A stretch of 64,000 nt of DNA from Ricordea florida (Eukaryota; Cnidaria; Anthozoa; Corallimorpharia; Ricordeidae). Made by a program: the position numbers and the translations under genes. The notes below the pieces were generated by a model. It was not told where the DNA came from, did not search any database, and saw only the letters and a program-made list of their open reading frames with translations. Of this stretch, positions 3,401 through 64,000 are shown one piece after another; position 1 is the first letter of the stretch; each line of letters starts with the position of its first letter. Location of the stretch: the NCBI GenBank assembly GCA_949710005.1, contig OX453274.1:1077501-1141500 (forward strand), in the 5' to 3' direction.

Positions 3401-4752
3401 CGGCTGAACAAAAAATGTCTGGTCCAGTAAGCGTATAATTCCCGCCTAAAAAATGGATGAAAAAGTAAGAAACAGTATTTTTCAGTAAAGTTAGTTTCCT
3501 TTGTTGTATTTAAGCCTAGAAGTTGATTAGTAATTAATTTGATTAATTATTTTGGTTCTGTTGATTATCAGCTCCTACGATAAATGGTTTTGATTACAAG
3601 AAGAGTCGCATGCATTATTTATTTAAAATATGTAAGCAATGCTCACCAATCCAGCGTCGTTGCTAAGGGCAACAAGCGATCCAGGGTGCGATGTCACGTG
3701 ACCATGATAGAACGAGTTCTCTGGCACGTTCTCTTGAGATATGGTTCCTTTTTCGTGTTTCTCCACTGTCATTCCTGGGGATATTAACCCCTCGTTCTTA
3801 GAAAGGTTTAGATGCAGAGCCATTCCAAACGCTTGCACTTTGTATAACCATACAGTTGGTTGGTTCAGGTCTCTCCTTGCTTTTGTTGGAGTGTCCAGAA
3901 TATGAGAAACAAATTCTCCGGTCTCATCCACTTGAAAAGGGTGAGTGATCTCATATTCTGGAACTGAACCAAGAATTACAACTTGAGTACAATGATGCGT
4001 AATAACTTCTCGAACTGTTTTCATTACAGCGACAATTAAGAGACAAAGTGTTGAGAACCGCAAGTGAGATGAAGAATGTTAAATAAAGAGAGAACTGGAG
4101 CAAGGAAGTGCTCCGAAAAACTTCACCAGTGAGCGGTCGATTTGGTGATAAATTGTGGACCCTGAAATGCTTGGATAACAGGTAACAGGCAAGTTAAGAA
4201 TTTTTAAGGATGCAGTAGTTGGTTTCTTAAAATGTATTTGTATATTGACTTTGAAACTGTGCTGGGAGCAGGGTCAGTTGTGCAGTGGTGAGAGCGCTCG
4301 CTATCCATACACCAGTGTGGCCCGGGTTCGATTCATGGCCCCGGCGTCATATGAGGGCTAAGTTTGTTGGTTCTCAACTTTGCTCCGAGAGGTTTTTCTC
4401 CGGGTACTCCGGTTTTCCCCTCTCCGCAAAAACCAACATTTGATTTGATTTGATATGATTTGATTTAATTTCATTTGTACTTTACAGTGTCCTCAATTAG
4501 AACGTTAGTGCTAAATACGCTTGACATTCAAAGTTCATTATTATCATTATTATCTTTCGTTCTATAAATATGAACAAACATTCAACGATTAAAATTGTAT
4601 AAGGTTTTAGTACATTGTTTGTAGACTAAGCACGACTGCCAAATCCATAAAACCGCTTTGAGCTTACCGTCATCGTGCGAACTCACTCCAAAGTGTCTTT
4701 CGAGGTCATCTTTTCTCATACGAAGATGGACTGTAGCACGCGGTTTTGTCTG
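429..4752 (-). CDS. Gene B: ADAMTS-like metalloprotease, 5' part (runs off left edge)
   Basis: Spliced gene, minus strand, N-terminal half only. Exons seen, in transcript order: 4752-4668 (probable), 3963-3647, 3445-3298, 2703-2510, 1997-1917, 1573-1452 and 515-429, with GT/AG borders. They encode an M12B-type prodomain (exon 3963-3647 starts PEYEITHPF and contains SFYHGHV; the next exon has PHLVYKRS), then the start of the reprolysin protease (KYLEMTLVADQ), a middle segment (HPDVLALVSR) and the zinc site HESAH at the end of 515-429. Phases are consistent for the first six exons (a 1-nt carry into 2703, phase 0 into 1997 and 1573). One small exon between 1452 and 515 is not found, since phases there need an intervening piece. 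ADAMTS proteases are secreted and cleave matrix proteins. The exon borders match those of the paralogue gene A. Disintegrin, TSP1 and later domains would lie left of the window. Confidence 0.8.
590..1018. repeat. Tandem repeat, about 120-bp unit, 3 to 4 diverged copies
   Basis: The phrases CAGTGTGACCATTCTTTGG and GCTACTGAACAG recur at about 680-720, 790-825 and 980-1015, with a diverged copy near 890, each followed by a GTACTG-rich and GTTCTA segment. It lies in an intron of gene B. Confidence 0.75.
4264..4555 (+). repeat. tRNA-derived SINE in intron of gene B
   Basis: The head resembles a tRNA: an A-box-like TGGTGAGAGCG and a B box GGTTCGATTC. A conserved body follows (GAGAGGTTTTTCTCCGGG, CCGGTTTTCCCCTCTCC), then a gattt-rich tail and an L2-like ending (gctaaatacgcttgacatt). 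I recognise this body from cnidarian genomes. It is not a functional tRNA gene, because the acceptor arm does not pair cleanly. Confidence 0.7.
4668..4752 (-). other. Probable 5' exon of gene B
   Basis: An 85-nt exon-like segment with a good acceptor (tgtgtcatcag) and donor (gtaagc). It reads QTKPRATVHLRMRKDDLE and then RHFGVSSHDD. It ends in phase 1, which is what the prodomain exon at 3963 needs, since that exon starts with two bases completing a Val codon before PEYE. The open frame extends upstream of the acceptor with a hydrophobic stretch (FYVFMYPLLLC), so this could instead be the first exon carrying a signal peptide. Assignment rests on phase and position, not on a recognised domain. 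An alternative start is the hydrophobic MRFSTLCLLIVA at 4063, just upstream of exon 3963. Confidence 0.45.
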
Positions 4753-13026: not shown

Positions 13027-13393
13027 TTATTTCGGAAGGAAACTCCTCATAATCGGGCAGGTTTGGTTTGATTTTGTCTGGTTTGATTCAAGTGAGACAT
13101 TCGCTAAATCCTTTGATTCTTTTGCTATTTTCAGTTCGCGGAACGACCCGTTTCGAAATATACGCTCATTACACACGCCATCTTTTAGAGTGGGTCTACC
13201 GCAAACGGTGTGTGGGTCTGTATGTTTGAGCGTAGAAAAGATGACACCGTTTGTTTTCGACATTCGCCACCGACTTCGACATCGTAGAAAGAAGGTTGCG
13301 CCCGTATTACGTGTCTGCGGTATTCCCCATTGCACGTGACTGCGATTTGCGATGAAACTCGAGTGTAAACCTATAGTCGGTTGCCCGACTAAT
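13027..13393. repeat. Insertion interrupting the RT relic; shares a segment with 35.4 kb
   Basis: From about 13393 leftwards the RT frame is replaced by a segment containing GTCTGCGGTATTCCCCATTG followed by CACGTGAC. A near-identical segment (GTCTGCGGTAATGCCCATTG then CACGTGAC) is at 35430-35465, which suggests a dispersed repeat. No terminal repeats were identified. Confidence 0.45.
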
Positions 13394-13776
13394 AAGAGAG
13401 GTCCTAAAATTGATCCTTGGGGAATACCACATATGATTGGTTCCAGTGGAGAACAAACTGAAGTAAACTGTACAAACTGTTTCCTATTTGTCAAATAGCT
13501 AGTGATCCAGTCAAGAGGGCGCCTTCTGATAGCGTAGTGGTCAAGCTTGTTGAGCAGTATATGATGATCAGTTGTGTCAAAAGCTTTCGAAAGGTCCAAG
13601 ACAACACCTCGGTCGTCTCTATTATCAATGGCAGAATAAATGTTATTAACCCAGTGAATCAACGCCATTGACGTAGAGTGACTTCTATGAAATCCAAACT
13701 GGTTATTATAAAGAAGATTATGATATGTTAAGTAATTATAGATACGAATGTAAACCAATTTTTCGTAGAAAATCAT
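13394..13776 (-). pseudogene. Non-LTR retrotransposon reverse transcriptase fragment
   Basis: The minus-strand frame contains NNQFGFHRSHSTSMAL, then GVVLDLSKAFDTTDHHILL (the catalytic-Asp motif of the RT palm) and GIPQGSILGPLL. The frame stays open to 13027, but RT similarity stops after GPLL at about 13394. The FADD-type motif and C-terminus are absent and the sequence turns into unrelated DNA. It is a 5' and 3' truncated relic of a CR1/L2/Jockey-type element. Confidence 0.8.
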
Positions 13777-13794
13777 CGCTGGTGCCGATAGTTA

Positions 13795-14525: not shown

Positions 14526-50970
<36,445 letters not shown>

Positions 50971-51513
50971 CTGAAAACAGAAATATTAAGAGTGCTTTTA
51001 CTTCTTTGGTGCAGCATGAAGTAACAGTTATTAAAGCTCTAATTATAATTGTAGTTACCTAGCGACAGCATGTAAGTGTTACCAACTGGCACCACAGCAA
51101 CAAATCGCGTGCGGTGAATTTTTGTGGTTACTCCGTCCTACGGAGTACCACTATGTCATGGCGCTATGCGAGTCCGTCCGTAACAATAGAATGTGACGTC
51201 ACAATAGGATGACGTCCCTGGCCTAAGGCCAAGGTCGGTGCTTGCAAATAAATGCATTTTTATGTCCTTTTAGATCGTTATTTCTTAAAAACTTAATCGA
51301 TTAAGGAAATCCTATTTCAGGTTTCTTCTGCCGGGTAATTGAAGAGAAAAATTATTTTTCAGATTTTCGCAGACACGTGAAAACAGTTCTGAAACCAAGA
51401 GATATTATATAAAAGATATTAGACAAAAGTCTGGCATAATCCCTACTCTTAGTAGGTAATCTAATAAAGATTCAATATATTAAATTATACCTGACTACTA
51501 TGTAAGCGGGTTT
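50971..51513. other. Boundary region between gene A and the Polinton
   Basis: No gene A exon is recognised here. A phase-1 donor-like site (ATGCTGTCGCTAG|gtaac, minus, about 51080-51060) could join to exon 50970, but its short frame does not look like a signal peptide. A hairpin-forming GTGGTTACTCCGT/ACGGAGTACCAC sits at 51124-51151. An AT-rich stretch with no ORF follows from 51240. The left terminus of the Polinton and its TIR probably lie here but cannot be set without the right end. Confidence 0.4.
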
Positions 51514-51815
51514 ATAAGTACGTTTTTAGGTTATTTTCAAATTTGACTGAAAAATCTCTGTCCTTTTTTAGCTTATGGGTTATTTTCAAATTTGACTGAA
51601 AAATCTTGCCTTTTTTAGCTTAAGGCACATAAGTACGTTTTAGGTTTGGGAGAGGGTACCAAGTCTCTGCAAAGCTCATAAGTACGTTTTAGGTTTGGGA
51701 GGGGTATCAAGTCTCTGTAAAGTTCATAAGTACGTTTTAGGTTTGGGAGGGGTAAGTCTCTGTAAAGTTTATAAGTACGTTTTAGGTTTGGGAGGTTACT
51801 AAGTCTCTCTGCGAA
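51514..51815. repeat. Tandem repeats at left end of the Polinton
   Basis: Two copies of a roughly 48-bp unit starting GGTTATTTTCAAATTTGACT (51530 and 51578) are followed by four copies of a 45 to 49-bp unit containing CATAAGTACGTTTTAGGTTT and AAGTCTCTG (51628, 51677, 51725, 51770). A fifth half-copy (TATAAGTACGTTTTTAGGTT, 51514) precedes them. They end about 55 bases before the PolB start. They may be part of the TIR/subterminal region, replication or promoter sites. Function is not shown. Confidence 0.85.
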
Positions 51816-51850
51816 AAATTTGAAAATAATTACGGTTTAAAAGAAAAATT

Positions 51851-51868
51851 AGTGAAATACAATACTAA
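51851..51868 (+). promoter_or_regulatory. Start-proximal element of PolB (AGTGAAATACAATA)
   Basis: AGTGAAATACAATA at 51851-51864 is matched 13 of 14 by AGTAAAATACAATA at 63492-63505, directly before (and into) the start codon of the last ORF. The recurrence at two starts suggests a shared regulatory element; the role is inferred. Confidence 0.5.
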
Positions 51869-54800
51869 ATGGAACAACAATTACAAGGATTAAAAGTACC
51901 GCAACTAAAATCTTTAGTTAGATGGTATAATATTCGTGGAAGATCTGCGTTTAATAAACCAGAACTTATTAATGCATTGGTTAATATACCTGAAATAACT
52001 AATAATATTCAACAAATAATTAATAATATTGTGGGGATTGTTAATGAGCTGCGTAATATGCCAATGAGACCAGTAAATCAACCAAATTTACCTCTCCCAA
52101 TTCCGAATATTGCACCGCCTTTAACTACCCCCCAACCAATACTAGGAACCCCACCTGGATCACCTCCACCAAGAACTCCACCTGTTACACCGCCTGGTTC
52201 TCCTCCGCAAAGAAAAAGGAAACTAGCACCAACTTTTATAAAACCACAAAAACCAAAAACTCTACCGGGTTCTATTCCGTCAAGAAAATTAGCATCACAA
52301 ATATCAATTCTTGATGAGCCGGTACCTAAAATTAATGTTCCAATTCTCAAACCAAAGAATATTTTTAAGGTGTTAGATAAAGATAAGTTTGCCAAAAAGC
52401 TTGAAGAATTAGCAAATGAAAATATCATAAAATTTACTAATAAGAAAACTAAACCAAAAAAGGGGGTAACTATATCTGATAGTGTGAGAGATGAATTGAA
52501 GGAAAAAACTAAAAAGAAAAGAACAACAATCCTCAAAATATTTTCAATAAATCCGCATGAAGAGGATCCTCTAATTCAAAATAATCGGGATAATGTTATT
52601 AGAATTTGGAGGGATCTAAATAATGATTTGACAGAAACAATTTATAATGAGTTGGAACCCCAAATAGAAATGGGGGCAAGAATTGTTTTCAGTTTTACCG
52701 CTTTGATTCAAAGAGGAAATGGAGAAATAGCTTACCACACGCACACATTTAGAAGCGGAGGAACTTTTACTTCTCTTCCAGAAATAAAAAATTATATAGA
52801 GCAGTGCGAGGGAGAAAGATTGAGTTTAGAGGGTATCGCTTGGATGAGAGCATATTTACCTCCAGAAAAGAAAATTAATAAACCAGGTGTTAATGAGGGC
52901 GGAGTTGAGTTTAGAGAAGTACAAATAAAAGTTATTAATACCAGACAACCTTTAGTTGGGTGCGGAAGATTACCCGATGAATTACGAAAGAAAAAATGTA
53001 TTTATTCCGTAGATGATAAAGATGATAATCTCTGCTTCTGGAGGTGTTTAGCTATTTTAATGAATATTCAGGATAATAAAAAGAAGCACCAAAAAATTAA
53101 GAAAAATCCTGAAAAAAGAATAGAGAAAAGATCATTATATCTAGCTAGAACTTTTTATGGCAACAAAAAATTAAAAGGAGAAGAAGTTAGATCGACAAAA
53201 TTGGTTGATTTTGAGAAAATTTCAAAAACTTTTTCCATAAACATACGGGTTTATGAGCAGAAAGATATATCAAATTTTTCAGTTTGGAAACTGGTGTTTG
53301 GGAAAAATAATTTCAAAGATGATTTACCAACTTTAAATTTAGGTCTTTATAATAATCATGGGTTTTTCATTAAGGATCTTGATATTCTTGCTCAAAACTG
53401 GGTATGTCAAGGATGTAAACAAAAATTTACCAGACACGACGATTTAAAAAGGCATTTTACTAATGAAACATGCACAGGAGGAGAGACAAAAATAATATGT
53501 ACGGGAGAAAAGATAAAACACATCACGAATGAATCTGACAAAGTTTTTTACGGGGGTAAAATAAATTTTAGTTATAAAGCGTGTAGGTGGATTGAACACC
53601 AATCTAAAACTATGGGAAAACATATTCATCATGCGCTTTGTGGCCATGGTGGCGAAAGGTGTTATAGGGATGAAGAGGGGAATGAGATTTTGTTCGATGG
53701 ATACGAACCCGAGACAAATACCGTTTTTGAGTTTTATGGTTGTAAATGGCATGGGTGTCCGTGTTCAGAAACCGACAAAATTAAATATAATGAAACTATT
53801 GAAAGAGAGAATATGATAAAAAGCTTGGGTTATAATGTAGTATCGGTTTGGGAGTGTGAAAATCCTGAATTACCCAACATCTGGTTCAAAAAGAAATTTA
53901 ACCCATATCCCTATTTTATTGATTACGATTTTGAGGGATTATTACAAAAAGAAGACAAACAGATTACCGATGATTTAATTTTTACCCATACCCATATTCC
54001 AGTTAGTGTTGCAATAATCGACAATTTAACAAAAAAACCCGTTTTTCTTTGCAACCAAAATCCTGATCTCCTCATAAAAGAATTCGTTGAAAAATTGGAG
54101 GAAATAAGAAAAATTATAGTCGAAAAGGTTAGAGAAGAATATCCGCTTCCTGATCAAGATTCCTTACAAAAAAATGTCTTGCAAAAATATGAAGAATGGT
54201 GCAATCAAGTACCTGTTTTGGGGTTTAATAGTGGAAAATACGATATCAATTTGATTAAAAGACATTTTATAAAACACATGACCGAAAAAACTAAGGAGAT
54301 TTTTATTGCAAAGAAACAGAATAGGTATATGTTTTTAACAACACCGAATTTCAAATTCTTGGATATAATGTCCTACCTTGCGCCTGGGGTTTCTTTTGAT
54401 AAGTGGTGCAAAGCAAACAACTGTGAAGCCAAAAAACTTGTACTTCCTTATGAAAAATTGGACGGTTATGATAAGCTTTCCTTAGTTGGACCCGTGAAAC
54501 ATGAAGATTTTTACTCTTCCTTGAAAAAGAAAAACATTTCCAAAGAAGAATATGAAGAATATTTGCTCGAATTCGAAAAGAGGGGGTGTGTTACAATGTT
54601 AGACTGGTTGAAAGAGTATAATTTGAATGATGTTATTCCCTTTTTGGAAGCCCTTGAAAAAACAAGGCGATTATATTATCCGGATGAAATTGATATATTA
54701 AAAGATGCCGTTTCCATTCCGGGTGTATCAATGAGGGCTGTTCTAAATAAATACCAAAAAATGAAGAAGAAAGGAGATCCTGAATTGTACGCCCCAGGGC

Positions 54801-56440
54801 AATATTGTGCCCATAGTTGCGGTGAATTTTGTAAAGACAAGTTTTGCAAAAAATGCTACAAAATAAAGAAAGATTGTAAAATATGCGACAAAAACAAGAG
54901 TTATAAATTATTGAAAACGGGTATGGTTGGAGGCCCTAGTATTATATTTACACGATATGCAGAAAAGGAAGAAACAAAGATTCGTCCGCATAAATATAAA
55001 AATCCGGAAAATTGTGCGCGAATTGTTGGGTATGACGCAAATGGTTTATATCTATCCTGTTCGGGACAAGAAATGCCATGCGGAAAAGAAAAATGCATTG
55101 AGGTTGAAAATCCATCGGAGCCTAAATTTATAAAGAAGATTTGTGAAGATATTCTTGATGGAAATCTTTTCGGGTTTTGTCAAGTTGATATCCATGTACC
55201 TGATCATCTGAAAGAAAAGTTTGAAGAGTTTTCCCCCTTATTTATTGTAGACTCCGTTCCTGAATATTTAGTACCAGAGAATATGAAAGAATATCAAACA
55301 GCGACAGGTAGAAAACATCTAAAAGACAATAAAAAATTGCTTGGTGTTACCAAGGCAAAAAAGATATTTTTATATACACCTATGATAAAATGGTATCTTA
55401 ATCATGGTTTGGAGATTACCGCCATCCATAATATTTTAAAGTATGAATCAGGAAGGCCCTTTGGATTTTTTCCAAAAGAGGTGGCAGACGCAAGAAGAGA
55501 TGGAGATATTGAGGTTTTATTGGAAAAACTAAGTAAAGCCTTTGATGAAAACAAGATTGATGATGTGGTGAAAATTACCAATGAATTAAACCAATTCCCC
55601 GATATATTTAAAGTTATTGAAGAAAATAAAGATATCAAAGTACTGATTGAAAAGTTAAAACCAAAGTACAAAGGGTGTAAAGAATTAGCCGACACGAATA
55701 AACTTAGGGGAAATTCTTTCTACGGGAAAATGATAGAAGACAAAGAAAAACATAATATTACAAGGTATACTCAGGATGAGGAAGAGGTTGAAAAAGCCCT
55801 AAGATCTGCGTTCTTTGAGGATCTTAATGAAATAAATGACACATATGAAATAATAAAACGAAAAAGACTAATAAAAATAGACAGACCCTATCAATGCGGC
55901 ATCGCGGTGTATCAGCTAGCAAAATTAAGAATGCTGGAATTCTATTACGATTTTCTAGAAAAATACGTAGATAGAAAGGATTTTGAGCTGATTCAAATGG
56001 ATACAGATTCAATGTACATGGTAATTTCAGCCGAAAATTTGGATAATATTATAAAACCCGAAATGAGAGAAGAATACTTTACCGGCGGAAAAGAAAAATT
56101 CCTATCAACTTCTAAATATCATGATAAGACTCCGGGTTTGTTCAAAAAAGAGTTTGACGGTATTAGAATGATTGCTCTTTCCTCAAAATGTTATTACGCG
56201 GAGGATGAGAAAGGAAAGGCAAAGTATAGTTGCAAAGGTACAATTCATAGACAAAACGAAATGAACTGGGATAGATACATGTCAGCTTTGAAAGGGTCAA
56301 TTGATATGTCACAAAATACAGGTTTTAGAATCAATGATAACCAAATTGTGACATATACACAAATTAAAAAAGGATTGAATGCATATTATGATAAAAGATG
56401 GGTTTATGAGGATGGAATTCACACAAAACCATTATATTAG
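51869..56440 (+). CDS. PolB: Polinton family B DNA polymerase (protein-primed type), multidomain
   Basis: 1,523 residues. N-terminus: SAP-like motif (about 6-42), Pro-rich linker (about 78-115), a conserved region with NLCFWRCLA (C389) and NNHGFF (H497) resembling the OTU-like Cys/His module of Polinton polymerases, one C2H2 finger (513-536), and a nuclease-like block DGYEPETNTVFEFYGCKWHG (610-629) with D610, E621 and K626. Exonuclease: DYDFEG (D687, E689), N787-D792 and Y917xxxD921. Then a Cys cluster (C980-C1006). Polymerase motif A YDANGLYLS (D1056), motif B KLRGNSFYG (K1278, Y1285), motif C MDTDSMY (D1378, D1380) and SSKCYY (K1440). All catalytic motifs are intact, so it could replicate element ends primed by a terminal protein. 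No separate terminal-protein gene is identified. Start chosen at the first ATG after the tandem repeats. It overlaps the integrase tail to tail by 9 bases. Confidence 0.95.
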   Translation: MEQQLQGLKVPQLKSLVRWYNIRGRSAFNKPELINALVNIPEITNNIQQIINNIVGIVNELRNMPMRPVNQPNLPLPIPNIAPPLTTPQPILGTPPGSPPPRTPPVTPPGSPPQRKRKLAPTFIKPQKPKTLPGSIPSRKLASQISILDEPVPKINVPILKPKNIFKVLDKDKFAKKLEELANENIIKFTNKKTKPKKGVTISDSVRDELKEKTKKKRTTILKIFSINPHEEDPLIQNNRDNVIRIWRDLNNDLTETIYNELEPQIEMGARIVFSFTALIQRGNGEIAYHTHTFRSGGTFTSLPEIKNYIEQCEGERLSLEGIAWMRAYLPPEKKINKPGVNEGGVEFREVQIKVINTRQPLVGCGRLPDELRKKKCIYSVDDKDDNLCFWRCLAILMNIQDNKKKHQKIKKNPEKRIEKRSLYLARTFYGNKKLKGEEVRSTKLVDFEKISKTFSINIRVYEQKDISNFSVWKLVFGKNNFKDDLPTLNLGLYNNHGFFIKDLDILAQNWVCQGCKQKFTRHDDLKRHFTNETCTGGETKIICTGEKIKHITNESDKVFYGGKINFSYKACRWIEHQSKTMGKHIHHALCGHGGERCYRDEEGNEILFDGYEPETNTVFEFYGCKWHGCPCSETDKIKYNETIERENMIKSLGYNVVSVWECENPELPNIWFKKKFNPYPYFIDYDFEGLLQKEDKQITDDLIFTHTHIPVSVAIIDNLTKKPVFLCNQNPDLLIKEFVEKLEEIRKIIVEKVREEYPLPDQDSLQKNVLQKYEEWCNQVPVLGFNSGKYDINLIKRHFIKHMTEKTKEIFIAKKQNRYMFLTTPNFKFLDIMSYLAPGVSFDKWCKANNCEAKKLVLPYEKLDGYDKLSLVGPVKHEDFYSSLKKKNISKEEYEEYLLEFEKRGCVTMLDWLKEYNLNDVIPFLEALEKTRRLYYPDEIDILKDAVSIPGVSMRAVLNKYQKMKKKGDPELYAPGQYCAHSCGEFCKDKFCKKCYKIKKDCKICDKNKSYKLLKTGMVGGPSIIFTRYAEKEETKIRPHKYKNPENCARIVGYDANGLYLSCSGQEMPCGKEKCIEVENPSEPKFIKKICEDILDGNLFGFCQVDIHVPDHLKEKFEEFSPLFIVDSVPEYLVPENMKEYQTATGRKHLKDNKKLLGVTKAKKIFLYTPMIKWYLNHGLEITAIHNILKYESGRPFGFFPKEVADARRDGDIEVLLEKLSKAFDENKIDDVVKITNELNQFPDIFKVIEENKDIKVLIEKLKPKYKGCKELADTNKLRGNSFYGKMIEDKEKHNITRYTQDEEEVEKALRSAFFEDLNEINDTYEIIKRKRLIKIDRPYQCGIAVYQLAKLRMLEFYYDFLEKYVDRKDFELIQMDTDSMYMVISAENLDNIIKPEMREEYFTGGKEKFLSTSKYHDKTPGLFKKEFDGIRMIALSSKCYYAEDEKGKAKYSCKGTIHRQNEMNWDRYMSALKGSIDMSQNTGFRINDNQIVTYTQIKKGLNAYYDKRWVYEDGIHTKPLY

Positions 56441-57406
56441 AACAGAATTAGGGGGTAACTCTGTATCATCCGGAATAACCTGTAATTCCTCACGCACAAA
56501 ACCTCGCCTTGGCCCATCTTGTAAAAAGTATAAAACAGGTTGATTAGGAGAAATTCTACTTCCAGAAATATAATAAACTTTTATGCTCCAAATGGGATCT
56601 GTGGCTCTTCTTCTTTCTCCTCCTTCAAGTTCACCCGGAGCTAATAAATATCTAACCCTAACTTCGGTTGGTAGTCTAACCTCATCAAGCCCCACCGCGC
56701 GTTTGTAATTTTTAGTTTCAATATTCACCTCTTTCATTTTTATAGCCTCATCGGGCTCTTTACCGGTTATTCTCTTTTTCGTATTATTCAAAGTTTTTAG
56801 AATAGCCGGTAATCTTTTCACCCATACTCTTGATCGATCATCACTGATCATTTCTTGCGCATATTGATGACTAAATAATCTTTCTCCTAATATTTTATTT
56901 GCATTTTCCACAAATGCTTGTGCTCTATGATTACCAGCCTCACTTCTTTGTATCTTCACATTATGGTAATTCATGAGTTTACTAACTTCTCCCATAAATT
57001 CTTTCCCAGGATCAACCATTAATGTTTTTGGGTATTTCAATCTTCTAGAATATATTTTCTTAAAAGCTTCTGATATCTCTCGACTTTCTTTTGAGGTTAA
57101 TGGCTCAGCATCTTTATATCTCGAGGCGATATCAACCAAGACTAACGCATATTTATATGTTTTTCTTCTAACTCTATCATGCGGTAAAAATAATAAATCT
57201 GCTTGGTGAATCTGATTGGGTTTATCCACAGTCCAGTGCGGTCTAGGTATATATTTAGGAGCGGGTAGATAGATTTGCCATATTGCCTGTTTCTGCAACC
57301 ATTGTTTTGCCTCATTTTCACTTACTCTGGCCTTCTCTGCCAATTTAGGAATTGCAGAATATCCTTTCCAATACCCTTCGGTTGAATAATATATTTTTGT
57401 CATCAT
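56432..57406 (-). CDS. INT: Polinton retroviral-type integrase (RVE, DDE)
   Basis: 324 residues. N-terminus: helical HTH-like segment (1-45, SENEAKQWLQKQAIWQIYLP). Catalytic core: D70 in HQADLLFL, D132 in MVDPGKEFMG and E167 in AQAFVEN, a DD34E triad intact in spacing. C-terminus: basic, SH3/chromo-like RVRYLLAPGELEGGE and VLYFLQDGPRRGF. It would join element ends to host DNA and generate the 6-bp target duplications typical of Polintons. Transcribed opposite to the capsid genes: only 31 bases separate its start from the 59-codon ORF, so the two share an intergenic promoter. The retroviral HHCC finger is absent, as is common in this family. It matches the transposon-derived proteins known from nematodes and cnidarians. 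Confidence 0.93.
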   Translation of the reverse strand: MMTKIYYSTEGYWKGYSAIPKLAEKARVSENEAKQWLQKQAIWQIYLPAPKYIPRPHWTVDKPNQIHQADLLFLPHDRVRRKTYKYALVLVDIASRYKDAEPLTSKESREISEAFKKIYSRRLKYPKTLMVDPGKEFMGEVSKLMNYHNVKIQRSEAGNHRAQAFVENANKILGERLFSHQYAQEMISDDRSRVWVKRLPAILKTLNNTKKRITGKEPDEAIKMKEVNIETKNYKRAVGLDEVRLPTEVRVRYLLAPGELEGGERRRATDPIWSIKVYYISGSRISPNQPVLYFLQDGPRRGFVREELQVIPDDTELPPNSVLI

Positions 57407-57437
57407 TTAAAAATAAACAAGTATCTTATAAATTGAA
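57407..57437. promoter_or_regulatory. Divergent promoter between integrase and small ORF
   Basis: The 31-base gap contains CTTATAAATT (57425-57434), which reads as AATTTATAAG on the other strand, so it is TATA-like both ways. The longer word AGTATCTTATAAATT is repeated at 57629-57643 before the capsid gene. It sits 3 to 4 bases from the start codon, too close for a conventional 25 to 30-base TATA-to-start spacing. A very short leader or another role is possible. Confidence 0.6.
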
Positions 57438-57617
57438 ATGGTTGAGGAGGAAGAAGAAATAAAATTTACCGAATACCAAATCAACATTATGAAAAAAATT
57501 ATTAGGAAAAAAATTCTATATATGGAAGACGGCGACCAAATTTTTAATGTTTTAATTTTAATTCCCGAAGCGAGAGAAGGTTTGTTAAAACATATTTCCA
57601 AGTTAGAAAAGGTTTAA
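57438..57617 (+). CDS. Polinton small ORF, 59 residues, unassigned
   Basis: Reads MVEEEEEIKFTEYQINIMKK and ends HISKLEKV-stop (TAA 57615-57617). Acidic start, then amphipathic helical stretches, no membrane segment. It is preceded by the AGTATCTTATAAATT word also found before the capsid gene, and is only 30 bases from that gene's start. Both points favour a real gene over chance. Function unknown; position between integrase and MCP suggests a capsid or regulatory accessory protein. Confidence 0.6.
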   Translation: MVEEEEEIKFTEYQINIMKKIIRKKILYMEDGDQIFNVLILIPEAREGLLKHISKLEKV

Positions 57618-57647
57618 AGGTTAACCAAAGTATCTTATAAATTTACA
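57618..57647 (+). promoter_or_regulatory. Promoter-like region of the capsid gene
   Basis: AGTATCTTATAAATT at 57629-57643, identical to 57420-57434, ends 4 bases before the capsid ATG. Part of the shared motif set of the element. Confidence 0.55.
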
Positions 57648-58889
57648 ATGACGTCTGAAAAAATTAATCCAAATAGAATTCCAAAAGAACCTTTTGGTTT
57701 GAAAGCAGAATCAACATTGAATCGAATTACTCTAAATCCATCCTCAGCAAGCCCCGGAGAAACATTATATATAAATATTCCAAAACTCGCCGAGAATTTA
57801 GTGATTGTGCCTGGAAGTGTATCTCTTCTATTTGATTTAGATGTCGAGGGCCATGCGAATAACACAGTTGTGAATAATGTGGGCCGTAATCTTGTAACCA
57901 GACTGAAAGTTCTTTTTGGAGGAGAAACATTGCAAGATACACAAAGATATGATTTATTTCAAACATATCATGATTTATTCTTAACCGAAGAAGAGCGTGA
58001 AGATAGATTAAAACAAGGTATTTCTTCGTTAAATATTAGAAAACTTAGAACAAAAGCCGGAGATGTAAAAACACAAGATGTAAAAGAAGTTGCTCTAGCT
58101 AATGTCCATGGTTCAAAGTACAGAATACCAATAAATCATCCTATTCTAAATGATCATGGAGTTTTTTATCCGAAGGCGTTGGAAAATCATCTTATATTTG
58201 AGATTACACTCGCACCGATCGCTAATATTCTTATTTATTCTGATACAACTAAAGCGCCATCATATTCAATCAAAAACTTAGAGTTGGAATATTCTTCCAT
58301 TTCAAGTGAATACTTGGCTCGCGAGGCTCAGGCGGCTTATCAAGTTGGTAAAGGATTCTTTTATGAAAATATTACCTTACACAAAACTTTTACATTTTCA
58401 ATTGGCGGAGATGGTGTTATTAATCAGCATATTAATTTACCGAGAAGATCAATGACGGGAATATTGTTTTTGTTTTTCGCACCCCAAGCTGCAGGAGCAA
58501 GGGATTCTGAAAATTTTTATAATCCGGGTATATCTTCCGTAGAAATTGATGTTGATGGTGTGCCAAATAGAATATACTCCAGGGGAATGATTCCGTCCGA
58601 TCTTTGGGAATCCGTGAAGAAAAGATTTCGTCGGGATGATGGTTTGCAAATTTCTTTGAAAGAAAAAGAATTTTACGCGGATAAGTTTGCTCTTTGGGTT
58701 GATACTAGAACTCATCCAGATAATGGTATTCATGGCGGCGGACTTGCTCTAAATAATACTCATGATGGCGTAAAAATAGAAATTAAAAGGAAACAGAGCG
58801 GATCCGGAACAATAACTTGTCATATGTTTGTCGTAGCTGACGCAATGATGGAGATTATGAATTCAAGTTTGAGATCAATTAAGTACTGA
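57648..58889 (+). CDS. MCP: Probable Polinton major capsid protein (double jelly-roll type)
   Basis: 413 residues, beta-rich, no signal or membrane segment. It contains VNNVGRNLVTRLKVLFGGET (about 86-105), LQDTQRYDLFQTYHDLFLTE and DLWESVKKRFRRDDG. These blocks match a conserved protein of Polintons in cnidarians and nematodes (C. elegans F54H12.2-like), the presumed capsid protein. It is shorter than the canonical adenovirus-like hexon of some Polintons (often 500 to 700 residues), so it may represent a compact MCP class. In the usual place next to the packaging ATPase. Its exact fold cannot be judged from sequence alone; a second candidate for a capsid protein was not seen. Confidence 0.75.
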   Translation: MTSEKINPNRIPKEPFGLKAESTLNRITLNPSSASPGETLYINIPKLAENLVIVPGSVSLLFDLDVEGHANNTVVNNVGRNLVTRLKVLFGGETLQDTQRYDLFQTYHDLFLTEEEREDRLKQGISSLNIRKLRTKAGDVKTQDVKEVALANVHGSKYRIPINHPILNDHGVFYPKALENHLIFEITLAPIANILIYSDTTKAPSYSIKNLELEYSSISSEYLAREAQAAYQVGKGFFYENITLHKTFTFSIGGDGVINQHINLPRRSMTGILFLFFAPQAAGARDSENFYNPGISSVEIDVDGVPNRIYSRGMIPSDLWESVKKRFRRDDGLQISLKEKEFYADKFALWVDTRTHPDNGIHGGGLALNNTHDGVKIEIKRKQSGSGTITCHMFVVADAMMEIMNSSLRSIKY

Positions 58890-58925
58890 CCAGAGGGAAG
58901 AACCTAAATTTAAAAACATTTAGTT

Positions 58926-59567
58926 ATGATACAAAAAATCATGGAAGATTTACGAGATAAAATACCATTCCATTGTATTATAACTGGACCGACGAATTGC
59001 GGAAAAACAAAGTACTTAATTGAACAGCTCCGTGGTCCTTTCCGGAAAGTTTTTGAATATATTGTTTTAATTTGTCCGACTTATTCTAAAAATAAAACTT
59101 ATCATAATTTTGCTAAAAAGGATGAGCGTTTTTATGTATTATCTCCGGATGCAAGTAACGTAGAGGAGATTAATGAGTTACTAACTGTTTGCCAAACTTT
59201 ATTCTCCGGAACTAATACACTAATAATTCTAGATGATTGCGCTGTTTCTAATGATCTGAAGAAAAGATCAAATAAGTTCATAGATTTGGCATTCTCCGGA
59301 AGACATCATGGTTTATCAGTTTGGGTTCTAACCCAGCAATTAACATCCATAGCAAAACCATTCCGCGAAAATATAGCTTGCGTTGTTACTTTTCATAATC
59401 CGTCGCAGAAAGGGATGAAAATGTTTTTCGAAGATTACGGCGGCGATTTGGATTATGAATTGGGGAAAAAGTTTGTACAACTCCTGAAAACTGAAAAATA
59501 TTCTAGGTTATGTTTATCTTTGCGATATCCATTTAATTGCTATTTAGAGATACCCGAAGTGATTTAA
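58926..59567 (+). CDS. ATPase: Polinton packaging ATPase (FtsK/HerA superfamily)
   Basis: 213 residues from the first ATG. Walker A GPTNCGKTKYL (21-31), Walker B TLIILDDCA (about 97-105, D103-D104), and WVLTQQLTSIAK (T136, Q137) as a motif III-like element. This family pumps DNA into capsids. The first ATG (58926) is followed in frame by a second at 58941, which is preceded by AAAAAATC, the context shared by the starts at 60647 and 62220. I consider 58941 (208 residues) at least as likely a start. Downstream ORF begins 7 bases after the stop. Confidence 0.9.
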   Translation: MIQKIMEDLRDKIPFHCIITGPTNCGKTKYLIEQLRGPFRKVFEYIVLICPTYSKNKTYHNFAKKDERFYVLSPDASNVEEINELLTVCQTLFSGTNTLIILDDCAVSNDLKKRSNKFIDLAFSGRHHGLSVWVLTQQLTSIAKPFRENIACVVTFHNPSQKGMKMFFEDYGGDLDYELGKKFVQLLKTEKYSRLCLSLRYPFNCYLEIPEVI

Positions 59568-59574
59568 CAAAAAG

Positions 59575-60159
59575 ATGACAAAGCCGGAAGATTATATTGA
59601 CCAACCGACAGAAAAAACTGAGGGAAAAAATGATACTAATCAAAGTGAGGATCTTGAAATAAAACAAGAATCTCTTGCCATTCTCGCTGTTCTCGGGACA
59701 ACAAAAGAATATTTAGGAATTGAAATGAGCCTGGGAGATGTAAAGAAATTATCTGCAAAAGATGTAGAAAAATATTTTAATCGTTATCAATCGGTAATGG
59801 GTAAGAAAATTAACGGAGGATTGGTAGATTCTTCCCTAGAATTAGTTTCCAAACTTATTTCGTATTTAGTTCCGGTAGATGACATAGATGCTCTTTGCGA
59901 TGATTTGAAGAAAGATAATTTGGTTAATCGTGAATTAACAAACTTTGTAGGTCTCTTGGCATTAAAAGGAGGAAGACTGACAGCACTTGCTAGCGGGGTA
60001 TTCCAGGTTGCTAAACACGTTAAATTCAACAAAAATCAACAAAAATCAAGAGAAGGAGCAGTAAATTCTAACACAACTGATCGGCGCGCTGGCGCTTCCT
60101 CTGCAGATCTTGATCAGGAAACTAAGCAATCTGCTGAAGGTGTTGATACAGTATATTAA
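59575..60159 (+). CDS. Polinton ORF, 194 residues, unassigned
   Basis: Acidic N-terminus (MTKPEDYIDQPTEKTEGKND), a helical core (LGTTKEYLGIEMSLGDVKKL, VSKLISYLVPVDDIDALCDD, FVGLLALKGGRLTALASGVF), and a hydrophilic Ser/Ala/Asp C-terminus. No catalytic motif or confident membrane helix. It begins 7 bases after the ATPase stop, so it is probably co-expressed. Related proteins occur beside the ATPase in cnidarian Polintons, with no known function. Confidence 0.8.
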   Translation: MTKPEDYIDQPTEKTEGKNDTNQSEDLEIKQESLAILAVLGTTKEYLGIEMSLGDVKKLSAKDVEKYFNRYQSVMGKKINGGLVDSSLELVSKLISYLVPVDDIDALCDDLKKDNLVNRELTNFVGLLALKGGRLTALASGVFQVAKHVKFNKNQQKSREGAVNSNTTDRRAGASSADLDQETKQSAEGVDTVY

Positions 60160-60197
60160 AAAGATCTAAAAACTTATTTGTAGCATCTAAATAACAA

Positions 60198-60608
60198 ATG
60201 TCAGAAGAAAGAGCAGAGGGTGTTGAGCAGATTACTGCAGATCCCAAAACCGAAAATAAAGATACTAAAAAGAGGGAGAAGGATCCCAAAAAGGTCGCTG
60301 CTGGAAAGAAATTAGCGGAATATAATAAAAAAGCAAAAGAAGCATTAGCCAGAGAGATGAAAAACGAAGAAGCCCCGAAAACTACAGAGAACAGTGAATC
60401 AAAATCATGGCTTCCGGAGTTATCTTTTACTACTGTTTTATCCGTTGTTGGATTGGGGTTTACAGCATTTGATCTTTTTATGAGATATAAGGAAAAAGCT
60501 AGGGTTGAATATTCTAATAGGATCGCCGATTTATCCCAAGTTCCGCAAATACCGCAACCAAAAAAGATACCATTTTCTGCAACTCCAAAATCTTTAGGAA
60601 TGGAATAA
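60198..60608 (+). CDS. Polinton small protein with one membrane segment, 136 residues
   Basis: A charged, Lys/Glu-rich first half (KDTKKREKDPKKVAAGKKLA) and one hydrophobic segment, FTTVLSVVGLGFTAFDLFM (about 75-93), followed by a basic tail. Looks like a single-pass or capsid-inner-surface protein. Not assigned to a family. In the small-membrane-protein cluster downstream of the ATPase. Confidence 0.75.
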   Translation: MSEERAEGVEQITADPKTENKDTKKREKDPKKVAAGKKLAEYNKKAKEALAREMKNEEAPKTTENSESKSWLPELSFTTVLSVVGLGFTAFDLFMRYKEKARVEYSNRIADLSQVPQIPQPKKIPFSATPKSLGME

Positions 60609-60646
60609 AGTCATTTAAAAGTTTCTTACTGATGTAGTAAAAAATC

Positions 60647-60865
60647 ATGTCAACCGAAAACAAACTTGTGAAAACTGTAACTGATTCAGCTGTACTTATC
60701 GGATTAGGAGCTGGGGTTGGTTATGTGGCTAAAAAGGTAATGAAAGAATCATTTTTGAGTGATCCATCCTCGAGTATTACAAATTACACAAAATGGGTTG
60801 CCGTATTATCCGGAAGTATGTATCTTAAAACATATTTAGAGGATCAAAAGATTTTACCAAAATAA
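60647..60865 (+). CDS. Polinton small membrane protein, 72 residues
   Basis: Two hydrophobic stretches (AVLIGLGAGVGYVAK, 15-29, and WVAVLSGSMYLKTYL, 49-63) with a Gly-rich turn. Start preceded by CTGATGTAGTAAAAAATC, shared with the gene at 62220. The stop overlaps the next ATG by one base (TAATG at 60863-60867). Unassigned. Confidence 0.75.
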   Translation: MSTENKLVKTVTDSAVLIGLGAGVGYVAKKVMKESFLSDPSSSITNYTKWVAVLSGSMYLKTYLEDQKILPK

Positions 60866-61263
60866 TGGCATTAGCATCAATAGCAATGATGGGGATAGGT
60901 GCAATATTGAATGCGGGAGCATTTACCGGAGGAAATATGCTCGCAAAATATATAATGGGGCGCAATGTGGATACGGAAAAAATACGACACGATAAGGCAA
61001 TGGAAAAATATCAAAGGGATTACGCAGAATATCAGGAAAAAAGACAAAAAATGCTTGATTGGAAAATGAAGAAAAAAGAGGAAAAATATCAAGCATCAAA
61101 AAATATTTCGGCTACAAATCAAGCCTTTGAATTGTACGGGCAAATGACTGAACCAAAATTCTCTGATTATTACAAACCAAGCGATGATCAAAAGACCGGA
61201 GAAATGATATATGTCGGGGCAGGGATGTTAGGTTTGGGTTACACAGTCAGTAAAATATTATAA
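60865..61263 (+). CDS. Polinton membrane/coiled protein, 132 residues
   Basis: Hydrophobic N-terminus (MALASIAMMGIGAILNAGAF), a strongly charged helical middle (EKYQRDYAEYQEKRQKMLDW), a conserved-looking LYGQMTEPKFSDYYKPSDDQ, and a C-terminal hydrophobic helix (VGAGMLGLGYTVSKIL). Translationally coupled in layout to the previous ORF (one-base stop/start overlap), as in compact viral genomes. I recall related proteins in cnidarian Polintons; function unknown. Confidence 0.78.
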   Translation: MALASIAMMGIGAILNAGAFTGGNMLAKYIMGRNVDTEKIRHDKAMEKYQRDYAEYQEKRQKMLDWKMKKKEEKYQASKNISATNQAFELYGQMTEPKFSDYYKPSDDQKTGEMIYVGAGMLGLGYTVSKIL

Positions 61264-61274
61264 ATTATTATTTT

Positions 61275-61304
61275 GTTATGTAACCAGTAATTGGGTTATA
61301 TAAC
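61275..61304. terminator. Hairpin between convergent Polinton genes
   Basis: GTTATGTAACC (61275-61285) and GGTTATATAAC (61294-61304) pair over 11 bases with one G-T wobble, loop of 8. It lies in the 51-base gap between the 132-residue gene (+) and the 267-residue gene (-), so it could end transcripts from both sides. Inferred from position. Confidence 0.45.
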
Positions 61305-61314
61305 ATAAGTATAT

Positions 61315-62118
61315 TTACATTAGACTTCCTTCATCAGAATATTCATCATCTTCTTCTCGTTCCATTTCTTCGGCTGCAGATTTACTATCTGAAAATCTAA
61401 CTTTAGTTAATCTTTTCCTTTCTTTTTTTGGTTTTATAACTGCTTCATAAAGTTTTACTTGAAGCGCAATACAAGAACCGCTAATAAATATTGATTCAAT
61501 TTGTATTACACCTTCTTCAACCTGGCACCCTGTGCCTAATAATTTTAATGGATCAATTTCCTTATCATTTTTAGAGTCATAAAACTTGGTTGTAATTTTG
61601 TCTTCTCTTTTTTTCCAAAATAATTTTGCATACAAGGTTGGCCCTTTATCTGGAACTCTATCGGGTGAATTTTTTTCCGTCTTCCAGTATAGAGGATTTA
61701 AACCTCCTTTTTGTTTTTCAAGCTCATTTCTTTCCAACTCAAATTTTCCAATTTTGTCTCTATTCATAAGTAAATGATCAACGCAATTGTCGACAATTTC
61801 ATTGAATAAATCAATCCATTTTTCTTCTTCGGGGGTTGGGCTGCTTCCACCCCATAAACATAATGGAAACACATATCCCGTAATTGCACCCGTTTCTGGA
61901 CTTGTGTTTGTGGAAACACCATAAGAATATAAATTTCCGGTTTTAATTACAAGTTCTCCTTCTGTTCCATCATCATTTTTCGTAAAGATTTTAATTCTTT
62001 TGAATTCAACCTTGGGTTTTGTCCCAGGAATTTGGCCAATAATTGGTTTGGAAAAGATCATGCTTTCTTGGGGATTATAAGTATTAATATCAATTAATTT
62101 AGTAGTTTCGTTCGTCAT
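61315..62118 (-). CDS. Polinton conserved viral-type protein, 267 residues
   Basis: A globular N-terminus (FSKPIIGQIPGTKPKVEFKR, TGYVFPLCLWGGSSPTPEEE), then PLYWKTEKN, GPTLYAKLFWKKREDKIT, TKFYD, DPLKLLGTGCQVEEGVIQIE and SCIALQVKLYEAVIKPKKE, then an acidic tail (REEDDEYSDEG). The LYAKLF...KFYD...ALQVKLYEA layout recalls a conserved, probably OB-fold, protein of large DNA viruses and virus-like elements (DUF5871-like), possibly single-stranded DNA binding. That is from memory and not certain. Only the second minus-strand gene of the element, divergently transcribed from the 408-residue gene with a 101-base gap. Confidence 0.7.
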   Translation of the reverse strand: MTNETTKLIDINTYNPQESMIFSKPIIGQIPGTKPKVEFKRIKIFTKNDDGTEGELVIKTGNLYSYGVSTNTSPETGAITGYVFPLCLWGGSSPTPEEEKWIDLFNEIVDNCVDHLLMNRDKIGKFELERNELEKQKGGLNPLYWKTEKNSPDRVPDKGPTLYAKLFWKKREDKITTKFYDSKNDKEIDPLKLLGTGCQVEEGVIQIESIFISGSCIALQVKLYEAVIKPKKERKRLTKVRFSDSKSAAEEMEREEDDEYSDEGSLM

Positions 62119-62219
62119 TTTATTTCTTTTTATTTTTACTTTTATTCCTTTAAATCATTTTTTCTTTTATTTTCCGACTCAAGTTAGTCTAAAGATTTAT
62201 TGCTGATGAGTAAAAAATC
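62119..62219. promoter_or_regulatory. Divergent intergenic region before the 408-residue gene
   Basis: AT-rich, T-tract-rich gap. The right end carries GCTGATGAGTAAAAAATC immediately before the 62220 ATG, nearly the same as ACTGATGTAGTAAAAAATC before 60647. The left half has long A-tracts read on the minus strand. Confidence 0.5.
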
Positions 62220-63446
62220 ATGGCAGAAGAAATACCAATGGAAGATTTTTCAAGAGATAATAATGATGCCGGAGATGATGATAATTATGATTGGGATGAT
62301 ACAGCTTTACAAACCACAAACACATCTACAACCCTTGACCAAGAGTATCATGGTTATGATGATTATAACCAATCAAGAGACAGGGCTCAATGGGAAAAAC
62401 CATCAGAAAGAATGAACCTGGGAGAAAGAGATGAGGGATATGATAGAATGAGAGAAGCTAGGCAAGAACTCAAACGATATTACCCAAATTACGAACCCAA
62501 TGACGGCGCATTTAATGTTCGGTTTGGAGAAAATGGAAGTATAGAAGGCCAATTAAGTACCGCAAGAAATAATGTTTGGCATACAATAGTTGATGAAAAT
62601 GGGGTTCTTAATATAGAAAATTTACCAAAAACATTTAGAAAAGCTCTAGGTGCTGATTATGAAAGCATGTTAGAAAAATATAATAAAACCGCTTCAGAAT
62701 TAAATGAAGAAAAAGAAAAAAATAAGGAATTAAATAATATCGCAGAGGGTTTGATGGTAGAAATAAATACACATCCGCTGGAGATTGAAAGATATGCGGA
62801 AAGAGAAAAAGAACTTAGGGAATTCATTGAGAGACAACAGGCACAAAAAGCAGAAAATAAAAGTCTTTTCGATCAAACTGTAAAACAGAATGTGGAATTA
62901 AAAATACAAGCGGAAAAACTTTTGGACGAAGTAAAATTATACAAAGAAGAAATAGACAAATATAAGAAGGGTAAATCAAATGAATCAAAATTAAAACAAA
63001 GCAATGATCGATTAAAATCTGAGGTTGATAAATTAAAAGAACGACTTAGTAATAAAACAATTTCGAGCGAAGAACAATTATCAGATATTGAGAGCCGAAA
63101 AGATGAAATATTTAAAAATTTACCGCTGCGGGAGAAACTAAAGTATATATTCAAAAAGTATGGTTTTACAGTTTTTGGTATTTTAAGTGCGGTAGGCGTC
63201 ATCATTGGGGTAATAGTTTCCAATCTTTCAAAGGGTTTATCCGCTTTGGGAAGGGGAGTTGGAAATGGATTAAAAACTCTTGGGAAAAAACTAGGTGAAA
63301 TATTACCGGGAATGGTTGGCGCAATAGTTAGCTTTCTTTTCAAAACCGCAGGCCAGGTTATTGGATTTTTAGGCGAGAATGCTTGGCTTTTGATAATGGC
63401 TGTGGTTCTTTATTTTGTGGAAAGTATAAAAAAGAAGAGAAAGTAG
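62220..63446 (+). CDS. Polinton coiled-coil/membrane protein, 408 residues
   Basis: Acidic, disordered N-terminus, then a region with RYYPNYEPNDGAFNVRFGEN and WHTIVDENGVLNIENLPKTF (85-140), a long coiled coil (about 150-290, ESMLEKYNKTASELNEEKEK) and a hydrophobic, Gly-rich C-terminus (VFGILSAVGVIIGVIVSNL from 317; GNGLKTLGKKLGEILPGMVG; AWLLIMAVVLYFV) ending in a basic KKKRK. The tail looks membrane-active, as in capsid proteins that breach membranes on entry, but no such activity can be proven from sequence. I recognise it as a common protein of cnidarian Polintons. Likely virion or membrane structural protein. Confidence 0.8.
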   Translation: MAEEIPMEDFSRDNNDAGDDDNYDWDDTALQTTNTSTTLDQEYHGYDDYNQSRDRAQWEKPSERMNLGERDEGYDRMREARQELKRYYPNYEPNDGAFNVRFGENGSIEGQLSTARNNVWHTIVDENGVLNIENLPKTFRKALGADYESMLEKYNKTASELNEEKEKNKELNNIAEGLMVEINTHPLEIERYAEREKELREFIERQQAQKAENKSLFDQTVKQNVELKIQAEKLLDEVKLYKEEIDKYKKGKSNESKLKQSNDRLKSEVDKLKERLSNKTISSEEQLSDIESRKDEIFKNLPLREKLKYIFKKYGFTVFGILSAVGVIIGVIVSNLSKGLSALGRGVGNGLKTLGKKLGEILPGMVGAIVSFLFKTAGQVIGFLGENAWLLIMAVVLYFVESIKKKRK

Positions 63447-63504
63447 ATCTGCTTCGCGACCTCTTTGTGATCTAAAGATATCACACTGACCAGTAAAATA
63501 CAAT
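63447..63504 (+). promoter_or_regulatory. Promoter-like region before the last ORF
   Basis: ACTGACCAGTAAAATACAAT sits at 63485-63504, directly before the ATG. ACTGACCAG also occurs at 58885-58893 between the capsid and ATPase genes. Confidence 0.5.
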
Positions 63505-64000
63505 ATGGATCAATACAACGGAATTTATCCTCAATTAGCTGAAGAACCAAAAAATTTCAGGATTTTAAAGTCATGCGAAGTATTAAATAATCTTAATAAG
63601 GAAATTGTTCATTACGAGGAAGTAAGAAAAAAATACAATAGGGCAAGAGGAATATTTACAAAAATCAGTGTTGGAAGTGGCGTGTTTTCAGTTATCCTTT
63701 CAGCAAGTGGTTTGGGTACATCTCTTACTGGTTTTGGAGCTATTATTGGCGTACCGTTAGGTGTTGTGGGCGGTGTATGCGGCGGGGTATCGGTTGGTTG
63801 TGCCGCTATATCAAAAAGACTTTCTCATAATGTTAGTAAACATGAACAAACAGTTTCTCTGGCAAAGGCAAAAGTAAACACCATTAACGATTTAGTTTCA
63901 AAAGCATTGAAAGATAAAACTATATCTGACCAAGAATTTTCTCTAATTTTATCAGAGTCAGAAAAGTTTGAAAAACTAAAACTAGAAATCCGGCAAAAAA
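63505..64000 (+). CDS. Polinton Gly-rich membrane protein, partial (runs off right edge)
   Basis: Open for 165 codons without a stop. Starts MDQYNGIYPQLAEEPKNFRI, then a Lys/Asn/Glu helix, then a Gly/Ala/Val-rich hydrophobic stretch (SVILSASGLGTSLTGFGAII then VGGVCGGVSVGCAAI, about 59-101) with two hydrophobic helices, then a charged helical tail. It resembles the hairpin of hydrophobic helices in pore-forming or membrane-remodelling proteins, but that is inference. I recognise related proteins in cnidarian Polintons, where they are annotated only as hypothetical. Confidence 0.75.
   Translation, partial: MDQYNGIYPQLAEEPKNFRILKSCEVLNNLNKEIVHYEEVRKKYNRARGIFTKISVGSGVFSVILSASGLGTSLTGFGAIIGVPLGVVGGVCGGVSVGCAAISKRLSHNVSKHEQTVSLAKAKVNTINDLVSKALKDKTISDQEFSLILSESEKFEKLKLEIRQK

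Follow-up and report, generated by a model that had tools for sequence, protein, structure and literature searches.

A full-length, probably young Polinton in Ricordea florida, its relatives in the same genome and their promoter-like motifs

Background

Polintons, also called Mavericks, are regarded as linking transposons to large DNA viruses, and to our knowledge the trigger that switches them on in animals is unknown. As of 2021 Polinton particles had not been observed (PMC8097293), and an adenovirus-like protease was reported in 74% of Polintons (PMC4028283). Models have proposed that the OTU-like domain of PolB releases the terminal protein (PMC11071308). Among related viral systems, the late motif of CroV is described as TCTA in AT-rich surroundings (PMC5294985), and the presence of TCTA in mavirus has been read as a hint at possible reactivation of such elements by CroV (PMC8547959). 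Here we analysed a stretch of 64,000 nucleotides from the Ricordea florida genome (assembly of 537.8 Mb in 48 contigs), namely positions 1077501-1141500 of contig OX453274.1 (C3), which we call the window. The left three quarters or so of a Polinton occupies its last 12.5 kb, and we used the 9 kb directly to the right of the window (piece L010) to find the right end of the element. We consider it likely that this is a full-length, recently integrated Polinton, one of what look like some 150 related copies in this genome, which together behave as a recombining virus population.

The element and its core genes

A first-pass annotation of the window had placed an element at 51200..64000; the element is there, but its left tip lies at 51494 and its right end 4,042 bases past the window, giving a length of 16,549 bp. 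Both tips read ACTACTATG, and each is flanked by ACCTG, the left copy of this duplication being at 51489..51493 and its partner at L010:4043-4047. The left terminal inverted repeat (TIR), at 51494..51868, pairs in inverted orientation with L010 4042-3670, the two matching at 96% over 379 bp, and holds 49- and 48-bp tandem repeats (51529..51795). Thus the matching TIRs expected by the annotation were found, but the target duplication is of 5 bp, not of the predicted 6 bp. With a matching right end in place, the view that this is a full-length, coding-intact and probably young Polinton/Maverick was upheld.

The four open reading frames (ORFs) that had been called intact, for PolB, the integrase (INT), the major capsid protein (MCP) and the packaging ATPase, are indeed without stops in the window copy, and every catalytic residue that had been named is present. 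PolB, of the protein-primed type (1523 aa, 51869..56440, plus strand), has a SAP-like N-terminus, OTU-like Cys and His residues, and exonuclease and palm motifs. An alignment of 22 rows, one of them the window PolB, shows no variation at the palm residues D1056, D1378 and D1380; in the OTU-like part, the Cys segment (at 389) is kept in 21 of the 22 rows, the remaining row lacking the region, and H497 is kept in all 22. INT (324 aa, 56432..57406, minus strand) carries D70, D132 and E167 and matches the Pfam rve family (PF00665, 4.6e-09). The MCP (413 aa, 57648..58889, plus strand) is of the double jelly-roll kind by which Polinton membership is judged, its match to Capsid_N (5.8e-04) being below the Pfam cut-off. 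The ATPase is of the A32/FtsK type (213 aa, 58926..59567, plus strand; Pox_A32, 2.9e-12), with the Walker A motif GPTNCGKT and the Walker B motif LIILDD.

Residues 600-1500 of PolB, used as a query, retrieved 1028 relatives. The window PolB matched no Pfam polymerase family, including DNA_pol_B_2, and its profile found a weak match to Vsr endonuclease in PDB and nothing better. A sequence search of PDB gave no useful match for PolB, MCP, INT, the ATPase or the DUF2738 protein described below. Scanning the viral contigs of IMG/VR with the MCP, the MCP alignment, PolB and the DUF2738 alignment returned no relative; in prokaryote genome contigs the TIR repeat was absent, and the PolB alignment hit one fragment at 24% identity. 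A cluster of MCP sequences (P0091), 63% identical to the window MCP, stands for 4980 member sequences, and related elements may therefore be very abundant elsewhere.

Relatives across the genome

Searching the whole genome with the 28-base tip, allowing at most two mismatches, gave 157 forward and 152 reverse matches, 309 in total, and the backward-tip control gave 0. Among 100 tips listed, 96 form 48 facing pairs and four are unpaired in the list; the pairs have a median length of 16.2 kb, with 47 spanning 15.5-16.8 kb and one 32 kb. Taking half of the 309 tips as an estimate, there look to be about 150 elements in the genome. The best 101 of 6186 candidate MCP matches are all full length, 96-100% identical and without a stop. 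The annotation had set a young intact copy against mostly decayed elements; its probable youth stands, but with 309 tips and 101 of 101 scored MCPs open it is no exception in its own genome.

We then took 20 further copies as tip pairs (0 or 1 mismatch), one half of each, comprising 11 left and nine right halves. With the tip read as (ACT)n, 5-bp target duplications are found at all 20 and at the window copy (21/21), and in one copy, L018, each end is longer by one ACT unit. A stop lies inside the match in three of 158 gene copies from these half-elements (in INT for L024, in the 202-aa gene for L016 and L025), where one match was counted per gene, some matches were cut by the end of the piece, and unmatched genes, such as the single-stranded DNA-binding protein (SSB) gene in five right halves, were left out. 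Short rows were also flagged for P5 and P6 of L019 and P5 of L027, near the edge of the retrieved piece. When all matches per gene were counted, only PolB of L029 and the 202-aa gene of L015 were in two pieces. We considered contamination or misassembly and ruled it out, as capsid copies lie on contigs C1 to C16 and each of the 21 elements has its own 5-bp duplication.

The first 60 nt of the two ends are identical within each of the 21 copies, whereas between copies these tips show 9.4 differences on average and are identical in 28 of 420 comparisons. Whole TIRs, compared within copies, differ by 68 substitutions over 7732 aligned bases, with none in six of the 21. In contrast, the median synonymous divergence (dS) between copies is 0.25 to 0.86 depending on the gene. 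As a copy's own TIRs differ by less than 1%, most of this divergence is older than the insertions, and the combination of identical tips within copies and wide divergence between them is consistent with recent insertions drawn from a replicating, diverse population. The element genes are under purifying selection, the median dN/dS over 12 genes being from 0.07 (ATPase) to 0.32 (the 408-aa P9). Between-copy distances are uncorrelated at many neighbouring genes, for example P9 and P10 (r = -0.14), P10 and the 537-aa gene (-0.06), and the 537-aa gene and the penton candidate (0.15), and copies L012 and L016 have identical P10 genes but P9 genes only 69% identical. Together these results point to gene-by-gene recombination, which is what different genomes replicating in one cell would be expected to show.

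Frames of PF03175-type PolB, a type that the window PolB does not match, gave 154 matches in the genome; other Polinton families are therefore abundant in it. Four of these matches lie within 30 kb at C8:21370093-21400803, three of them about 5.3 kb apart.

Other open reading frames and host surroundings

To the right of the ATPase gene, four ORFs follow on the plus strand: P0005 (P5; 194 aa, 59575..60159), matched in 20 of 20 sampled copies; P0006 (P6; 136 aa, 60198..60608), with a hydrophobic stretch as read by eye; P0011 (P11; 72 aa, 60647..60865); and P0007 (P7; 132 aa, 60865..61263), whose ends appear hydrophobic by eye. The minus-strand gene at 61315..62118 encodes a DUF2738 protein of 267 aa with strong Pfam support, a predicted SSB of the giant-virus type (DUF2738/CP312R), as both its family profile and its OB-type SSB fold indicate. 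The SSB gene was found in four of the nine sampled right halves, and the other five gave no match. Next on the plus strand are P0009 (P9; 408 aa, 62220..63446), with a coiled coil and a C-terminal hydrophobic stretch recognised by eye, and P0010 (P10; 63505..64000), which leaves the window and stops shortly inside L010. Beyond the window lie a 537-aa ORF (L010:217-1830), a 211-aa penton candidate without a Pfam match (L010:1880-2515) and, on the minus strand, a 202-aa ORF (L010:2567-3175) and a 128-aa ORF (SAP-Zn; L010:3283-3669), in which a SAP/Rho_N start is fused to CxxCGGSxIC repeats. The first residues of SAP-Zn nearly match those of PolB because the TIR extends into both genes.

Accessory proteins occupy two slots, one beside SAP-Zn and one between P7 and P9. 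Their C-termini have in common a pattern like W.PSR..D...EELR.L, and otherwise they are 27-96% identical to the window element's copy, the 202-aa ORF; they occur in copies L012, L014, L015, L016, L020, L021, L025, L026 and L030. One accessory ORF (L015:5840-6355) weakly resembles the ocr DNA mimic (PF08684, 8e-4, below the cut-off).

On the host side, the insertion adjoins a protease gene, as had been noted: a reprolysin (ADAMTS-type) propeptide exon lies at 50621..51058 on the minus strand (PF01562, 1e-12). At 3623-4078, 32481-32840 and 15546-25813 the minus strand holds another reprolysin propeptide exon, a TSP1 exon of the ADAMTS type and exons resembling WSC or EGF, some of them below the cut-off; these exons perhaps belong to a row of related host protease genes. 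Reverse transcriptase fragments also occur in the host part (13027-13791 and 27271-27588, the second slightly below the cut-off). A weak TIR-like repeat at 50115-50138 was judged to be due to chance.

Promoter-like boxes

Of 15 genes in the window copy, 10 have a T[CT]TAAA[AG] box that begins at -36 to -32 relative to the ATG. Within the window the form TTTAAAR is found before PolB (TTTAAAA, 51836..51842, -33), MCP (TTTAAAG, 57613..57619, -35), P11 (TTTAAAA, 60614..60620, -33) and, on the minus strand, SSB (TTTAAAG, 62148..62154, -36), and the form TCTAAAR before P6 (TCTAAAA, 60165..60171, -33), P9 (TCTAAAG, 62188..62194, -32) and P10 (TCTAAAG, 63471..63477, -34), these and the first three being on the plus strand. 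An unsupervised test confined to the window copy gave ATTTAAA as the best 7-mer, present in 12 of 14 upstream regions, a weak result that was reached in 1 of 300 random sets. In the 100-nt regions upstream of mechanically found ORFs in 22 pieces, TCTAAAGAT occurs 25 times, 24 of them at -40 to -31; in total it occurs 26 times in the 22 element pieces and not once in 51 kb of host DNA. Likewise, the interval -40 to -31 holds 28 of the 29 TCTAAAG found upstream, and -60 to -41 holds 17 of the 19 AAAATTGA. Per kb, the elements are not richer than the host in AAAATTGA (0.09 vs 0.13) or TCTAAAG (0.10 vs 0.09), position alone being special.

We next named genes by homology and counted strict AAAATTGA at -70 to -36 and TCTAAAR at -40 to -28 in 164 upstream regions. 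Strict AAAATTGA is present before PolB (4/11), SSB (4/5), the 202-aa family (6/10) and SAP-Zn (1/10), that is, in 15 of 36 compared with 0 of 128 others (Fisher 8e-12). TCTAAAR is found before P6 (12/12), P9 (9/10), the 537-aa gene (9/10), the penton candidate (6/10), ATPase (7/13), P10 (4/10) and P5 (1/19), in total 48 of 128 against 0 of 36 in the PolB/SSB/accessory group (6.6e-07). The MCP gene (12/12) and P11 (all) carry TTTAAAR, and INT and P7 have no box at that position. In block-shuffled upstream regions the means were 0.9 for AAAATTGA and 1.1 for TCTAAAR, with a maximum of 5 in 164. A looser pattern that also admits AAATTTGA is found in 9 of 11 PolB and 8 of 10 SAP-Zn upstream regions, compared with 4/11 and 1/10 for strict AAAATTGA. 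The two gene groups were set post hoc, after an earlier motif table, with INT put in the second group, and the copies share ancestry; the p-values therefore overstate the case. On the other hand, the box is kept in genes down to 64-75% identity, which argues for a function.

Neither AAAATTGA nor TCTAAAGAT was seen in the control families (L002-L009), whose pieces are mostly PolB coding sequence and hence an unfair control; in a further control piece (L071), one frame is open to the piece end, with no upstream region in which a promoter-like motif could be judged. At the 3' side, mimivirus-type hairpins are not enriched (2/149 vs 0.85 by chance). The bin at the stop codon contains 17 ATTAAA (2.2 expected) and 8 AATAAA (2.9 expected), and poly(A)-like signals are not raised downstream of this bin. 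As far as our limited literature search goes, the giant-virus-type SSB and the class-split promoter-like motifs look new.

Discussion

For an element of this make-up the following cycle may be proposed, in which enzyme activities, particle formation, expression timing and present-day activity are inferred from sequence. To prime replication, PolB would use the terminal-protein domain at its own N-terminus, to be freed by the OTU-like protease domain; priming would begin on the (ACT)n ends and then slide back by one triplet. Such a sliding-back start of protein-primed replication is known in adenovirus and phi29, and the (ACT)n ends together with the matched triplet gain at both ends of L018 fit it. 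The rve integrase would insert the linear DNA with a 5-bp duplication, and the MCP, the putative penton and the ATPase would assemble and fill the capsid. The genes seem to be read in two classes: TTTAAAR boxes precede PolB, SSB and the accessory genes, in some cases with AAAATTGA upstream as well, and TCTAAAR boxes precede many putative virion genes.

Several points weigh against the reading of a full-length, recently integrated element within a recombining virus population. The 211-aa ORF is a putative penton as judged by its size, position and a C-terminal pattern read by eye, and no protease family, the adenain type included, was found among the ORFs scanned by Pfam, which a diverged protease could escape. 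The two TIRs of the window copy differ by six substitutions and by 10 gap columns over an alignment of 378 columns, four of the substitutions being inside the tandem repeats and two just past them, and gene conversion could contribute to TIR identity. Between-copy distances do agree for PolB and MCP (r 0.78) and for P5 and P6 (r 0.73). L029 lacks an intact N-terminal part of PolB, and INT of L024 has a stop. Behind the estimate of about 150 elements stand 48 pairs among the tips listed. Moreover, the copies were picked by well-kept tips and the MCPs were the best of 6186, so that old broken copies are under-sampled; the sample is therefore silent on decayed copies and on the genome-wide share of intact ones.

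A burst of transposition, in which one or a few masters spread inside this genome only and without particles, would agree with the short TIR distances, and all copies examined come from one genome. However, a median dS of 0.25 to 0.86 between copies whose own TIRs differ by less than 1% places most of the divergence before insertion, purifying selection acts on the capsid, penton-like and ATPase genes, and the closest relatives often differ between neighbouring genes; a burst is therefore unlikely in our view. That the host retains the elements, for instance as an antiviral defence, seems very improbable: the sample has very few stops, and in a protist endogenous virophages reportedly lessen infection by giant viruses (PMC10945749), but dispersed insertions, near-identical TIRs and intact duplications require recent mobility.

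The boxes may be ordinary TATA-like elements read by host RNA polymerase II, an account we find almost as easy to accept as to doubt: TTTAAA is TATA-like, its distance to the ATG is near-constant, and the stop codon shows an excess of ATTAAA and AATAAA, a signal that copies of a few genes may produce. However, it leaves the gene-class split and AAAATTGA unexplained, and AATAAA is not enriched past the stop codon. Alternatively, the elements could be a swarm of proviruses responsive to a giant virus, like mavirus in Cafeteria, chromosomally silent like a virophage until activated by a virus that shares the AAAATTGA/TCTA promoter code and the SSB, and whose transcription machinery reads both motifs. 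Mimivirus and CroV have AAAATTGA as their early motif and CroV has TCTA as its late motif, the DNA polymerase promoter of iridovirus IIV-6 contains AAAATTGATT (PMC5294985), and mavirus carries TCTA (PMC8547959). The class split (15/36 vs 0/128 and 48/128 vs 0/36, against shuffled means of 0.9 and 1.1) and the giant-virus type of the SSB point the same way, and finding a similar early/late motif pair, similarly sorted, in an animal Polinton is striking, though not proof. On the other side, the p-values are overstated by post hoc grouping and related copies, neither motif is commoner overall in the elements than in the host, and the Mimivirus early motif is reportedly absent from DNA replication genes (PMC5294985), whereas here it precedes PolB and SSB. 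In addition, the virion gene MCP has TTTAAAR in 12 of 12 rather than TCTA, INT has no box, and the 3' ends lack enriched mimivirus-type hairpins and show raised ATTAAA/AATAAA at the stop codon, which suits the host polymerase. We thus regard such a swarm as rather improbable, and dependence of the element on a giant virus as possible.

If the elements were such a swarm, animal Polintons would be a giant-virus parasite or a defence system, as mavirus is in protists. In any case, what look like about 150 young, mostly open and recombining copies are a good place to seek particles and the activation trigger, two kinds of giant-virus-like start signals may help show how Polintons become activated, and motifs split by gene class make the question of who transcribes a Polinton answerable from ordinary RNA 5'-end data.

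Comparison with known systems

The Ricordea element shares with Polintons/Mavericks the protein-primed PolB, the rve integrase, the A32/FtsK ATPase, the VP54-like MCP, a putative penton-like protein, TIRs, a length of 15-20 kb and triplet-type tips (PMC4028283, PMC8097293). It differs from them in having no recognised protease, in carrying an SSB of the giant-virus type and in its target duplication, which is 5 bp here. In contrast to reported vertebrate Polintons, its MCP gene adjoins the ATPase gene and its tips are (ACT)n, not (AGT)2 or (AG)3; 96% of vertebrate Polintons are described as defective, in a survey reaching beyond copies with good tips (PMC8097293), whereas our tip-biased Ricordea sample is nearly all open. 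Compared with the DUF2738/CP312R/P31K ssDNA-binding proteins of giant viruses, the Ricordea gene resides in a 16.5-kb integrated element. Adintoviruses, to which the annotation had likened the element, also combine an OTU-bearing PolB with an rve integrase (PMC11071296), but in the Ricordea integrase Pfam finds rve alone and no C-terminal chromodomain. Finally, mavirus and the endogenous mavirus-like elements of Cafeteria also have an rve integrase, TIRs and a TCTA-type motif upstream of genes, and short target duplications are a common trait, being 3-5 bp in the Cafeteria mavirus-like elements and 5-6 bp in mavirus and Mavericks (PMC8547959).

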